Source: Deltaproteobacteria bacterium RBG_13_61_14 (lineage in GTDB: Bacteria; RBG-13-61-14). From it: DNA of 5,613 nucleotides. The notes beneath the pieces are model-generated. The model was not told the DNA's origin. It was given only the letters and a program-made list of their open reading frames with translations, and searched no databases. The position numbers and the translations under genes were made by a program. The stretch lies in the NCBI GenBank assembly GCA_001797815.1, contig MGQK01000035.1, positions 1 through 5,613 on the forward strand. Direction: 5' to 3'. Numbering within the stretch: position 1 is the first letter of the stretch; each line of letters begins with the position of its first letter. Shown in pieces: positions 1-5,613 of this stretch.

Positions 1-3000
1 CATCGGCCAAGGCATCATCCAGAAGTGGATTCAAGCCGCAACTCGCGCCGGCGATCTCCCACCCGTCAAACATCAGGTCCCCGTCGCTGTCCGGGTTCAG
101 CGGGTCGGTGCCATGGGTATTGACCTCGGCACCGTCCGTGAGACTGTCCCCATCGGTGTCGGGGTCGGTGGGGTTGGTGTCGTAAACCAGGACTTCGTCG
201 CCGTCATCCAACCCGTCGGCATCGGTGTCGGCCGCGCAGGGATCGAGCCCAAGAGCTAATTCCTGGTCTTCGCGGAGCGAATCCAGATCTTTATCCGTAT
301 ACTGGATTCCGGCGCGGGTAAAAAACACTTCGGCAATCCCGAGGCGGTCGTCGGACCAGGCGACCCCGAACTGGCTTCCGGTCCAGGCCAAGGCGGGCGG
401 TCGGAAAGTGGCCGTGGCGGTGGAAATATCGCCGCTGAAAGGCCCGAGGGTGTCGCCCTCCTGGGTCAGCATTGCCACTCGGATCCGGGACGCCGCCTCG
501 TAATCCTTTTCCTCCCAGACCAGCCCGAACTGGGGCCCGATCGGGGTCAGCGCGGACGAAGACTGAACAGCAGTCAGGTAAGGGGCGTAGGTGATCTGCT
601 GGTAGGGCCCGAGCACGGCGCCGGCGCCCGAAACCAGGCCGGTGAAGATCTGTTTGTAGTAGATAAAGTCGGTCCAGGCGAGAAGGAAGTTTCCGGCGCT
701 GGCCTCGACCTCGGGGCCATAGGCCACGTTGGTGGTAATGCGCAGCTCCGGGCCCAGGACCGTGCCCGAGGCGGAAATGCGGTTGAAGTAGATTTCCGGA
801 TTGAACCCGCCCCCGCGCTCGTCCTCGAAGACCACTCCAAACAGCGATCCGTTCCAGGCCAGGCGGGGGTGGTAGTTCTCGGCCGCGTCAAAGGTCACGC
901 GCACGTCGGCGCCCAACTTCTGACCGCCAGCGCTCACCCGGGCGAAATAGATCTCATAGTTGCCGTCGCGATTGTCTATCCAGGTCACCCCATACTGGCT
1001 CCCGCTCCAGGCCAGGGACGGATATGCCTTGTTGGCCGAGGAACTGGTCACGCGGAGGTCGGACCCGATTTTGGTCCCGTCCATATTCAGCCGGATAAAA
1101 TAGATTTCCGCATTCCCGGTCCGGTGATCCGCGCCGGCAAAAGCATACTCGGCGCCGGTCCAGACCAGGGAACAGTCGTAGTAATCGTCGGCAGTCAACT
1201 GGATATTGTCGCCGATCTTGTTTCCCGCCGCGTCCAGTCGGACAAAATAATAGGAATAGCTTTGTTCCCAGGCCATCCCGAATTCGGAGCCGGTCCAGAC
1301 CAGCTTGGGATTGCGCGCAAAATAAGAGGACTGGCTCACTCGCAATTCCGATCCCACCGGGTAGGGCGGTTGCACCAACTCCGACACGGCGGAAAGCGGA
1401 TCCAGTCCGCACGCGGTGCCGGCCTCAAACCCGTCGGTCAAGTTGTCGTGATCGCTGTCCGGGCAGGAGGGGTCGGTGCCGAACGACAGCTCATCGCCGT
1501 CGTCCAGACCGTCGCCGTCCGTGTCCGCCAGCAGCGGATTGGTGAAATAGCTCGTGACCTCCTCCGCGTCGGTCAGCCCGTCCCCGTCCGTATCCGTGTC
1601 GCAGGGGTCGGTGCCTACGGTAAACTCCTGCAGGTTGGAAAGCCCGTCGGCATCGTTGTCCAACGCGGCGTCGTCGGCCAGCGGGTTCAAGCCGCAGCTT
1701 CCGCCCACATTCACCTCCCAGGCGTCGCCCATGCTGTCATCGTCGCTGTCGGGATCGGTGGGGCTGGTGCCGAGGCCGACTTCCCGGGAATCGCTCAGGC
1801 CGTCCCCGTCCGTGTCCGGATTGCAGGGATCGGTCCCGAGCTGGAACTCCTGGAGATTGGTGAGGCTGTCGCCATCCGCGCTGCCCAAGGAATCGCCGAC
1901 CAGGGGGGTGAGACAGGAGAGATAGATCACCTCCCAGCCGTCGGGCATGGTGTCGCCGTCGCTATCCGGGTTCGCCGGGTTGGTGGCATTGGCGTATTCA
2001 TCGCCATTGCTCAAGTCATCGCTGTCCAGATCCTGGCCCGCATCGGCCGGATCAGTCGGGTTCAGTCCATACGCGACTTCCCAGCCGTCGGGCATGGTGT
2101 CAGCGTCGGTGTCTATATCCTGCGGGTCGGTGCCGAGCTGATATTCCAGGAGGTTGGCGAGCCCGTCCCCGTCGGCATCAGCGTCGGCGTCATTGGCCAA
2201 CGGGTTCAGGCTGTGGCTCACCTCCCAGCCGTCGGGCATGGTGTCGCCGTCGGTGTCGGGAAGCAAGGGGTCGGTAAGATAGGTTGACACTTCTGCCCCG
2301 TCGGTCAGACCATCGTCGTCGCTATCCGAGTCGCAGGGGTTCGTGCCCAGCGTATACTCGGACAGGTTGGTCAAGCCATCGGTATCGCCGTCGAACAGGG
2401 AATCGCTGGTCAGGATATCCACGCAGGGGTAATTGTTTTCCCAGCTGTCCGGCATGCCGTCGGCGTCGCTATCCGAGTCGCAGGGGTTCGTGCCCAGGCC
2501 GTATTCGGCGAGGTTGTTCAGGCCGTCGGTATCGCCGTCGGCCAGGTCGTCAGGCACCAGGGGGTTCAGGCAGGGCTGCAGCGCTTCCCAGGCGTCGGGC
2601 ATGCCGTCGCCGTCGGTGTCGTCAGCGAGGCAGGGATCAGTGCCGTGCTGGTATTCCCGGAGGTTGTCCGCCCCATCGCCATCCGGATTGAGCAAGGAAT
2701 CGTCAACTAGAGGATTCACACAAGCCAGGTTGGCCACTTCCCAAACGTCGGGCATGGTATCGGCGTCGGTGTCCGGGTTGGTCGGATCGGTGCCGTTGAG
2801 ATATTCCTGGAGGTCGCTCAAGTCGTCGGCGTCGGCGTCCTCCAAGATCAAGGTCAGGGCCAGGTCGTCCCGGTCATTATAGTCGCCCTCGTCGCAACTC
2901 GCGGCGGGACTATCGTAAGTGAAAGCCACGCGGATACCCTGGACGCCGACCGTATCTCCCAAGGTGAAGGTGACGCTGAGGATCTCGGCCGCCCCGGATA

Positions 3001-5613
3001 CCGAGCAGCCGGCGGAACCCACGTAGTTCCAGGATACCGCGCTTGCGGAATCGGTTTGATACACATAGAGCATGTCGTCGGGAGCGGGGCCATAGCACCA
3101 GACCGTGGCATCCAGGCGGACGGTGTCGCCGGTCTGGAATCGGGCCGCATTGCTGAGGTCGGTAACGGTGAAGGCCTCGAGGGATTCGTCGGCAAGGTAC
3201 CAGCCCGAGGTCCCATCGGCGCAGGGGCTGGCGATGAGGGTATTGGGCTGGTTGGGCTCGGCGTTGTTCCCGGCGCCATTGTCCAGCTGGTTGCGGCTGT
3301 TGATCAGGGTGGTGGGCACCACGCAGGGCGCCGCGCCGGTCGAGCACTCGGGCGCGCCATAGGCGACGCTATGAACCGCGGTTTCCGGGCCGGAGGGGGT
3401 GCGGGGGTTCAATCCGTAGGTAACTTCCCAACCGTCGGGCATGCCGTCGTGGTCCGTATCCGCGTCGCAGGGGTCGGTGCCTTCGGCATACTCGTCCGCG
3501 TTGTTCAATTCATCCGAGTCATAGTCTGCCAGGTTGTCCACCGTGTCGGCCATCATGCAGGAGTAGGTGTTTTCCCAGGTGTCCGGGAGTCCGTCGTCGT
3601 CGGTGTCGCAGTTCTCGTCAATCGTGCCGTAGCCCGAGTCTCCCGGGCATTGGTTATCAATGTCGTCGCACAACTCGGCCGCGTTCGGATAGACTACGGA
3701 ATTCGCGTCCTGGCAGTCCACCCCGGTAATGGTGATATAGGCGTCGCAGCCGGTGAACCAGGTGTCCGTGTCGCTGTCGAGGCAGGTGGCGCAGGAGGTC
3801 CAGTTGTTGATGTCCGCGTCATTGCAATCCGGGCCGTCAATGCCGACATACTGGTTGCAAAGCTCGTAGTAGGTGTCGGTATCGTCGTCTTGGCAGGTGT
3901 CGCAGGTGTCCCAGGCGTTTTGATCGCCATCGTTGCAATCGGCGCCGACGAGACAACCGGGGCCGTAGCCGTCGCCGTCGCCATCGGTGCAGTCGTCGAC
4001 ACAGGGATCGGTCGAGCCCTGGTATTCCTGGAGGTTGGTGTAAGCGTCCCCGTCCGGGTTCAGGAGCGAATCTTCGACCAGCGGGTCCACACAGGCGCTG
4101 TTGGCGACTTCCCAGCCGTCGTCCATGCCGTCGCCGTCGGTGTCGGCCAGGCAGGGGTTGGAGCCGAGGCTGTATTCGGTCTGGTTGTTGAGGGTGTCGC
4201 TGTCATAGTCGGCGAGGTTGTCCACGGTATTGGCCTGCATACAGGAATAGGTCAGCTCCCAGGTGTCGGTCAGGCCGTCGCCGTCGGCGTCGTCGGCGAG
4301 GCAGGGATCCGTGCCGTGCTGGTATTCACGAAGGTTGTCAGCGCCATCGCCATCCGGATTCAGCAGGGTATCTCCCGCGAGCGGGTCCAGACAAACGTTG
4401 GCCACTTCCCAAACGTCCGGCATGCCATCGGCGTCGCTATCGGAGTCGCAGGGGCTGGTCCCGGCCGCGGCTTCCTGGTTTTCGGTAAGCAAGTCTCCGT
4501 CCCGATCACGATAGGCGGTCTCCAGGCGATAGGCCATGATCTCCTGCTGGGCGCTGTAGCGCGAGGTGAAGTAGGAGAGCATGAATTGGGAGCCGGTCCA
4601 GATCGGGGTCGGCCAGACATTGGAACCTGGCGTAAGCTGAAAATCGGCGATCCCTTTGGCGCCCTCGCCGGAGAGAGCGGTGAAGAAAATGGCCGTGCTG
4701 GCCACCCGCTCGTCCTGCCAGAAGATGCCGTATTCGCTGCCGGTCCAGAGCATCATCGGATGGTACGAATTGTTGGCCTGGCTGGTGATCCGCTGATTGG
4801 CGCCAATCAGGCCGCCGCCCAACCCGATGCGGTTGAAGTAGATTTCATAGTTGCCGTCCCGATTATCGTACCAGGACATTCCATATTCGGAGCCGGTCCA
4901 GGCCAGCGAAGAATTGGCCGAGGTCTTTCCGACGGCCGCGACCACGGTCTGCGGCGAAATCGTGTCGCCGGCTGCGGTCATTTGCACGAAGAGCAGGCGC
5001 AGGTTCCCCGCGGCAATGGTCTCGTCCCAGCCGGCCGCATAGCGGGAGCCGGTCCAGAGCAGATAGGGATTATTCGCGGTGCCGGTCCCGGTTGAAATGA
5101 CCAGGTCTCCATCCAGACGGGTGCCGTCCGCGCCGATCCGGCTGAAATAGACCTTGCCGTCCGGGGAGATCCGCGTCCACTCCAGGGCAAAAACCGAATC
5201 CTGCGGGTTCCAGATCAGCCAGGGAGCGCCGACGTTGGTAGTAGAGTTGGTGATTCGGGTCTCCGTTTGGAGGATGGCTCCGTCCGCGGCAAGACGGGCG
5301 AAGTATAGTTCCCGGACGGCGTTGCGGCCATCGTCCCAGCATAGCCCGTATTCCGACCCTGACCAGGCCAGCACCGGGTACTGGCGGGTTCCGGGAACCG
5401 TGCTGATCTGGAGGTCCGGGCCGATCTTGGCTCCGTCCGCGCCGATGCGGGTGAAATAAACCATGAAATTGGTGTTCCGGTTGTCGGTCCAGGCGATGCC
5501 CATTTCCGAAGTGGTCCAGGCGACGTTCTGATAATAACTGACGCCGGTGGCGGAGGTGACGCGGGTCTCCGGAGCGATGGTCCGGGCAAAATGCTCGGTG
5601 CTGCCCGGGAGCG
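1..5613 (-). CDS. Giant modular TSP3-repeat / beta-propeller surface protein, partial at both ends
   Basis: One minus-strand frame is open across the whole window (whole codons from 5611 down to 2, about 1,870 residues) with no stop; start and stop lie outside. Domain order by window residue: propeller-type repeats 1-367, TSP3 repeats 369-538, MopE-like Cys-rich module 539-668, TSP3 669-736, beta-sandwich-like domain about 744-922, TSP3 925-1406, second propeller block 1407-1771, TSP3 1773-1870 and onward. The Asp-rich DxDxDG motifs are typical of calcium binding, and the many regularly spaced cysteines suggest an oxidising, extracellular location. No enzyme active site, transmembrane helix or signal peptide is visible here. 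Likely role (inference): an exported calcium-dependent scaffold or adhesin. Internal ATG codons exist in frame (for example at 4981-4983), but conserved repeat sequence continues upstream of them, so none is a plausible start. I do not recognise a named gene. The frame and domain mosaic are secure; the biological role is unknown. Confidence 0.95.
2..295 (-). repeat. TSP3 calcium-binding repeats, block 4 (4 copies, continues past the window edge)
   Basis: Encodes residues 1773-1870. Copies start DKDLDSLREDQEL, DTDADGLDDGDEV, DTDGDSLTDGAEV and DSDGDLMFDGWEI. The first supplies the GLDPC cysteine expected to partner TACG on the far side of the second propeller. The last one (AGASCGLNPLLDD) is a WEV-type half with a cysteine, cut off by the window edge. 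By the spacing rule of this protein, another NLxEY-type repeat with a cysteine about 30 residues later should follow outside the window. Confidence 0.9.
299..1393 (-). repeat. Seven-copy Trp-rich repeat block, probable beta-propeller (second)
   Basis: Encodes residues 1407-1771. It belongs to the same repeat family as the block near the other end: LVWTGSEFGMAW, LVWTGAEYAFAG, LAWSGSQYGVTW, LAWNGSLFGVVF, the degenerate VEASAGNFLLAW and LTPIGPQFGLVW, then LAWTGSQFGVAW. Each is followed by an EIYFxR-type strand and usually a G-x-ELRIT strand. Equivalent first-Trp positions start at 1297, 1162, 1009, 856, 703 (Ala instead), 544 (Pro instead) and 385, with a period of 45-53 residues. An unpaired strand (VGSELRVS) precedes copy 1, and copy 7 ends at EVFFTRAG without that strand. 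This is good evidence for ring closure with exactly seven blades. The block lies between a TSP3 WEV-type half (TACGLDPL) and an EY-type half (DKDLDSLREDQE), so it looks inserted into a TSP3 double unit. The fold is inferred; the ligand is unknown. Confidence 0.82.
1394..2839 (-). repeat. TSP3 calcium-binding repeats, long block 3 (about 20 copies)
   Basis: Encodes residues 925-1406. About twenty copies alternate mainly between a MPDGWEV type ending in LNP and an NLxEY type ending in GTDP; occasional single copies (for example DGLTDGAEV, DGLSDSREV) break the alternation. Cysteine pairs at fixed spacing occur at codons starting 2722/2632, 2572/2482, 2425/2335 and 1915/1825 (29 residues between) and 1696/1603 (30 residues between). 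Two neighbouring double units, at about 2120-2227 and 1974-2083, have no cysteine in either half. An odd cysteine (GTDPSC) near the C-terminal end does not fit the pairing rule. In homologous repeats each copy wraps calcium through its Asp side chains, giving a rod-like stalk; twenty copies imply a long one. The last copy (DNLTDGFEAGTACGLDPL) is a WEV-type half whose partner lies beyond the second propeller. Confidence 0.92.
2621..2689 (-). repeat. 69-bp direct repeat within TSP3 coding sequence, copy 2
   Basis: Second copy of the segment at 4292-4360, about 1.7 kb away on the other side of the MopE-like and beta-sandwich domains. It has six synonymous differences and an identical 23-residue product. 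This points to an older internal duplication, or gene conversion, within the TSP3 array. Confidence 0.85.
2846..3382 (-). other. Six-Cys beta-sandwich-like domain resembling C-terminal domains of secreted proteases
   Basis: Encodes residues of about 744-922. Landmarks in order: APECSTGAAPC, TTLINSRNQ, EPNQPNTLI, SPCADGTSGWYLADES, FQTGDTVRLDATVWCYG, DMLYVYQTDS, SWNYVGSAGCS, ILSVTFTL, QGIRVAFTY, SCDEGDYNDRDDLALTL. The alternating polar/hydrophobic pattern indicates an all-beta domain, and six cysteines could form three disulfides. From memory, the same landmarks (EPNxPNT, CADGTSGxxxxDES, VDATVW, the final SGxYxDxDDL) occur in a domain at the C-terminus of myxobacterial secreted trypsin-like and metalloproteases. 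I could not check this. No protease domain is present in the window. The domain sits between the WEV-half and the EY-half of a TSP3 double unit, so it may be an insertion into the calcium-binding stalk. Binding of cell-wall or other polymers is a guess. Confidence 0.68.
3404..3607 (-). repeat. TSP3 calcium-binding repeats, block 2 (3 copies)
   Basis: Encodes residues 669-736. Copies begin DTDDDGLPDTWEN, DYDSDELNNADEY and DTDHDGMPDGWEV. The first two form a cysteine-paired double unit (TYSC at 3559 and TDPC at 3469, 29 residues between). This unit closely resembles one in block 1 on the other side of the MopE-like module: both contain TYSCM, then TVDNLADYDSD. The third copy is a cysteine-free WEV-type half unit ending in GLNP, and it leads straight into the beta-sandwich domain. 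Its EY-type partner seems to be the first repeat after that domain. Confidence 0.9.
3608..3997 (-). other. MopE-like Cys-rich putative metal-binding module
   Basis: Encodes residues 539-668 of the same protein. There are three tandem units: CTDGDGDGYGPGC then ADCNDGDQNAWDTC; DTCQDDDTDTYYELC then DGPDCNDADINNWTSC; and ATCLDSDTDTWFTGCDAY then GVDCQDANSVVYPNAAELC. The module ends with CDDIDNQC and TIDENC. This matches the pattern I know as the putative metal-binding motif of MopE-like bacterial surface proteins (D-x-D-GY ... DCxD ... NPxAxExCDxxDNxC ... IDE), often found in tandem in myxobacterial exported proteins. Closely spaced cysteines, Asp clusters and Trp residues support a disulfide-rich metal-binding module. 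Whether it binds copper, as the Methylococcus MopE protein does, cannot be told. An extra Gly/Tyr-rich stretch (PGDSGYG) sits between CDDIDNQC and TIDENC, where family members usually have only a few residues. TSP3 repeats abut both ends. Confidence 0.82.
3998..4507 (-). repeat. Bacterial TSP3 calcium-binding repeats, block 1 (about 7 copies)
   Basis: Encodes residues 369-538. Seven copies are visible, opening with DRDGDLLTENQE, DSDADGMPDVWEV, NPDGDGADNLREY, DADGDGLTDTWEL, DYDSDTLNNQTEY, DTDGDGMDDGWEV and NPDGDAYTNLQEY. Alternating Asp residues in DxDxDG followed by a conserved Glu are the calcium-ligand pattern of thrombospondin type 3 repeats. WEV-type and EY-type copies alternate. Three double units carry a cysteine pair with 29 residues between the partners (codons starting at 4393/4303, 4243/4153 and 4093/4003). 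The first copy is only the second half of a double unit: its GTSPC cysteine has no partner in the window, and the propeller directly precedes it. The block joins the Cys-rich MopE-like module without a linker. Confidence 0.9.
4292..4360 (-). repeat. 69-bp direct repeat within TSP3 coding sequence, copy 1
   Basis: This matches 2621-2689 at 63 of 69 bases with no gaps, in the same orientation and reading frame. Both copies encode the same 23 residues, beginning NPDGDGADNLREY and ending GTDPCLAD. All six differences are in third codon positions and are synonymous. Confidence 0.85.
4511..5611 (-). repeat. Seven-copy Trp-rich repeat block, probable beta-propeller (first)
   Basis: Encodes residues 1-367. 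The repeat consensus is roughly LAWTGSEYGxxWxDxRDGN followed by YEIYFxRIxxDGxxIGxxxRIT. The first conserved Trp of each copy has its codon at 5518, 5365, 5212, 5056, 4900, 4747 and 4600, a period of 49-52 residues. The third copy is divergent (LIWNPQDSVF). The DRDGNYEIYF segment resembles blades of WD40-like/PD40 (TolB-type) propellers. The last copy stops after its EIMAYRL strand and lacks the closing G-x-x-x-RIT strand. An isolated strand of that kind (APETRVTS) comes just before the first copy, as expected for 'velcro' closure of a seven-bladed ring. The block runs directly into a TSP3 repeat (DRDGD, from 4507). The fold is inferred from repeat length and count. Ligand and function are unknown. 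A further copy upstream of the window cannot be excluded. Confidence 0.8.

Follow-up and report, generated by a model that had tools for sequence, protein, structure and literature searches.

Most double units of a bacterial TSP3-type repeat in the genome examined here carry two cysteines at a nearly constant spacing, and these quite probably form a lineage-specific disulfide clamp, one bond per unit, on a known bacterial TSP3 double repeat. A sequence-only reading had proposed one disulfide per double unit. Co-occurrence of the two cysteines, their spacing, the existence of isolated pairs, the predicted export of the protein, and an oxidase gene in the genome all argue for that proposal. The bond itself, calcium binding in this protein and a stabilising role are inferred.

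The window (the whole stretch of 5,613 nucleotides that was analysed) comprises bases 1–5613 of contig C35 in a 4.7-Mb genome whose phylum is represented in the searched collection by just three species. It is spanned by a single minus-strand frame (2–5611; 1870 amino acids, open at both ends) predicted to encode a giant exported protein, the C-terminus of which is missing because the contig begins at window base 1. The start of the gene lies on another part of C35 (L040, ~5634–5853), just upstream of window base 5613, in a different frame. A short run of N separates it from the window's frame, and both parts probably belong to a single protein. The upstream part begins MKRLIIILTLSGAILYLPSLALA, which by eye is signal-peptide-like, and directly after the signal peptide comes a Cys-paired double unit, YEVLWPC-31-C (31 residues between the cysteines). 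The TSP3 arrays belong to PF18884 (TSP3_bac), with a Pfam profile score of 120.6 bits (cut-off 25). They are flanked by propeller-like WTGSxYGxxWxDxR repeats in two stretches (302–1402 and 4472–5611), for which Pfam returned no match.

The first array is interrupted by a cysteine-rich block (3608–3993, minus strand) that is separate from the Cys pairs. It is built of a ~37-residue repeat with the spacing C-10-C-10-C-2-C-11, and a frame of contig C31 (L045) has similar cysteine spacing. At its end the block has a weak MopE-like motif; the match to the MopE copper-binding motif (PF11617) scores 23.1 bits, below the cut-off of 27, and falls in this neighbouring block, not in the Cys pairs. A toxin relationship was considered and rejected, as the match to the Binary_toxB calcium-binding domain (PF03495; 21.7 bits, below the cut-off of 25) reflects a shared calcium loop only.

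Each double unit consists of two calcium loops, each with a short helix, in the order DxDxDG..WE and then DxDxDG..N..EY. The first cysteine lies a few residues past helix 1, and the second directly after GTDP behind helix 2. Nine paired units had been claimed from the letters alone, and all 18 of the 18 codon starts named for them are cysteines in the minus-strand frame 2–5611. On that strand, units 1 to 4 occupy 4295–4438 (Cys codons 4393/4303), 4145–4288 (4243/4153), 3995–4141 (4093/4003), and 3461–3604 (3559/3469); units 5 to 7 occupy 2624–2770 (2722/2632), 2474–2617 (2572/2482), and 2327–2470 (2425/2335); and units 8 and 9 occupy 1817–1963 (1915/1825) and 1595–1747 (1696/1603). The partners are 29 residues apart in units 1 to 8 and 30 in unit 9, just as had been read. 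The pairs of units 8 and 9 stand alone: the 40 residues to either side contain no further cysteine. Two intact double units without either cysteine, also noticed earlier, are indeed present at 2114–2254 and 1967–2110 (minus strand).

This pattern extends across the genome. Fifteen contigs with TSP3 repeats were read, each over at most 20 kb, and double units were picked out by pattern matching. Among 66 double units in 13 reading frames of this genome, 56 have both cysteines, eight have neither, and two have one, in both cases in a different column of the unit and not at the canonical place. At least 13 giant predicted proteins carry Cys-paired units. A stricter unit definition that is blind to cysteines gives 34 units with both, three in which just the first site has a cysteine nearby, none with the second only, and five with neither (Fisher p = 6.6e-5, an optimistic value because the units are related copies). 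Joint presence or absence is beyond chance. Three units on L051 (contig C106) and L043 (contig C48) have a lone cysteine in the contexts GFQPC, GLNPC, and AFNC; it falls a few residues beyond the usual position of the first cysteine, and the second is absent.

As to which cysteines pair, bonding within the unit is best supported, because the spacing inside units is fixed, the spacing between units is variable, and some pairs stand isolated. The within-unit gap is 29 residues in 36 of 54 units and 26–43 in the others, in many of which the EY..DP loop is visibly enlarged by an insertion; the gap of 29 is kept although the spacer from WE to the first cysteine is usually four or five residues. Gaps between units take the values 18, 19, 22, 23, 42, and 51. 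In 53 of the 54 pairs no other cysteine lies between the partners, and 11 of the 54 are isolated, having no further cysteine in the 25 residues to either side. These 11 pairs count against the first alternative, a staple across units in which the second cysteine of one unit is bonded to the first of the next. Such a bond would often span 18–19 residues in tight arrays (14 cases), near the 19 residues between C856 and C876 of TSP1; yet the gap ranges from 18 to 51 overall, many units have no close next unit, and cysteines C964 and C1093 in block 3 would be left partnerless. We regard the across-unit arrangement as improbable.

A few cysteines outside the pattern do lend it something. One had been singled out as the sole misfit, that of GTDPSC (C1383, codon 1465), but C388, C1401, and C1792 do not fit either. 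At the array end, C1401 (FEAGTAC, codon 1411), a first-type cysteine on its own, may pair with C1383 (1409–1465, minus strand; 17 residues between), which is the other, between-unit phase. The first array opens with C388 (GTSPC; 4448–4450, minus strand, codon 4450), a lone second-type cysteine that could pair in the same way. Another lone second-type cysteine, C1792 (GLDPC; 236–238, minus strand, codon 238), stands in the opening motif of the last array. Both C388 and C1792 are found in the first calcium motif of an array that follows a propeller-like region. At the contig end, a further unit begins with its first cysteine, C1858 (codon 40), and is cut (2–88, minus strand); in paralogues of this unit, for example on contig C96, the partner cysteine follows 37 residues on. 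A recurrent last unit, WEI..ASCGLDPL...GNVSDPC (37 residues between), is common to several giant proteins (L042, L043, L049) and may be an end cap; the window frame is cut in what appears to be the same unit.

A second alternative, still less probable, is that the cysteines bind metal or link chains into a cross-linked surface layer, and that no bond forms within the unit. The proteins are cysteine-rich, and the weak MopE-like match is to a putative metal-binding motif. However, there are just two cysteines per unit, distant in sequence and strictly co-occurring even in isolated units, and links between chains do not require two columns to arise and disappear jointly.

The relatedness of the units bears on how their co-occurrence is to be read. 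On a unit tree built with the cysteines masked, the distribution of pairs needs five changes rather than one, and the Cys-less units are scattered over the tree, which is poorly resolved and on which shuffled labels do about equally well. In a tree-aware pair test, well-supported branches yield one independent comparison and the best tree five or six, so that significance is unreachable. Least probable of all, in our view, is passive inheritance, whereby an ancestral two-Cys unit was copied across the genome and the co-occurrence reflects copying instead of a bond: the units are related copies, and the low power of the tree-aware test and the performance of shuffled labels leave it room, but the cysteines have been kept while other columns diverged to 44%–69% identity to the first unit of a set chosen to contain Cys units (A4), the Cys-less units are scattered, and two units from archaea bear their own pair.

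AlphaFold2 models three Cys-paired units (5 to 7) with a pLDDT of 94.8, and a stretch in which Cys-paired and Cys-less units adjoin (units 7 and 8 and the two units without cysteines) with a pLDDT of 95.0; short helices are regularly spaced in both. Since Cys-less units are modelled as confidently as the others, the predicted fold is independent of the cysteines. Both cysteines come after the two short helices of their unit. Among 508 mostly Cys-less units from elsewhere, W10 in helix 1 is coupled to Y39 in helix 2 (rank 12 of 990), and because these residues coevolve, the helices preceding the two cysteines probably touch. The Cys columns themselves give no clear coevolution signal in this set, as most other units have a gap at the first of them. 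A single-unit profile found no solved structure by sequence, and a three-unit profile matched mainly OmpA-type TSP3, lanmodulin, Bap, and calmodulins. Foldseek gave weak matches to the signature domains of COMP, TSP2, and TSP1, and VIA-align matches all have Z < 5; absence from those lists carries no weight.

Prerequisites for disulfide formation are present, namely the N-terminus judged by eye to be signal-peptide-like and a frame of the VKOR-DsbA type. This one frame in the genome joins a VKOR domain to a thioredoxin/DsbA-like domain, with the motifs CPYC and CPHC. No DsbB was found in the genome; VKOR is a known substitute for DsbB, acting with DsbA (PMC11208910). We would suppose that the protein is exported and that the two cysteines of each unit are then oxidised, probably via the VKOR-DsbA-type enzyme, to one disulfide per unit. 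The bond would clamp both loop-helix halves together, and a clamped array might keep its order upon loss of calcium, or when the stalk is pulled or attacked.

Outside this genome the pair is rare. A GTDB-wide scan, from which we took the best 80 loci (15 named phyla) together with 11 loci on viral contigs, yielded 250 units, of which 237 have neither cysteine, 11 have one stray cysteine, and two are paired. The best matches in 386 diverse genomes add 60 units with neither and one with a stray cysteine, and in two genomes of the same order the pair is absent in the units read. Thus almost all of the ~310 units sampled in other bacteria and archaea lack both cysteines. Cys-paired relatives should have ranked high in the scan, because the query profiles rewarded cysteines, and by design the scan may leave out records of the source genome or of one very near. 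Given this near-absence in other sampled units, the Cys-paired form is, as far as sampled, a speciality of this lineage.

Both exceptions are archaeal, with the pair in the same places (L124, 31 residues between; L133, 39 residues between), and they look independent in origin. In the archaeal class of L124, 30 units from other loci (L248–L277) are all Cys-free (WEVxYGLNPN...QEYxxGTNP). A strong double-unit match occurs in 191 of 292 genomes of that class, and a long GQ-rich stretch adjoins one of the 30 examples. We lean, with little more than even confidence, toward a broader statement: that the prokaryotic TSP3 double repeat has independently acquired disulfide clamps on several occasions, genome-wide in this minor phylum and sporadically in archaea, the clamps each time joining the ends of the two halves in a geometry that is not that of animals. 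If so, the repeated additions would represent a convergent calcium-plus-disulfide stalk module.

TSP3-like arrays are common among bacterial and archaeal surface proteins, and the part of the literature searched yielded no report of disulfides in such arrays. Paired and unpaired units within the same protein offer a natural test of what such a repeat, already stabilised by calcium, gains from a disulfide, whether in strength, calcium affinity, or protease resistance, and the pair makes a simple signature by which to recognise, from sequence, a module usable as a rigid spacer.

Among known systems, the closest is TSP3_bac (PF18884), which shares the calcium motif with this protein. Its ordinary members are without these two cysteines, whereas most double units here have a matched pair; in TSP3_bac units elsewhere the column of the first cysteine is mostly a gap. 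The B domain of Bap (PDB 7c7r/7c7u) contains a calcium loop and helix stretch of 44–47 residues that superposes at 1.0–1.5 Å, though as a single local match of low Z (2.7–4.3) that covers only part of the repeat array. The TSP3 repeats of animals (TSP1, TSP2, COMP) are likewise tandem DxDxDG calcium repeats, strengthened by disulfides that have probable counterparts here; the EGF-like domains that precede the animal repeats and the L-type lectin domain that follows them gave no Pfam match in the window, where the C-terminus is missing. In TSP1, 19 residues separate the cysteines of the C856–C876 disulfide (PMC6526912), as against 29 in 36 of the 54 units here. The suggestion that this was a bacterial form of the animal thrombospondin disulfide therefore survives as an analogy only: because the spacing differs from that of TSP1, and because the cysteines are missing from almost every other bacterial or archaeal unit, the pair looks like an invention separate from the animal bond.
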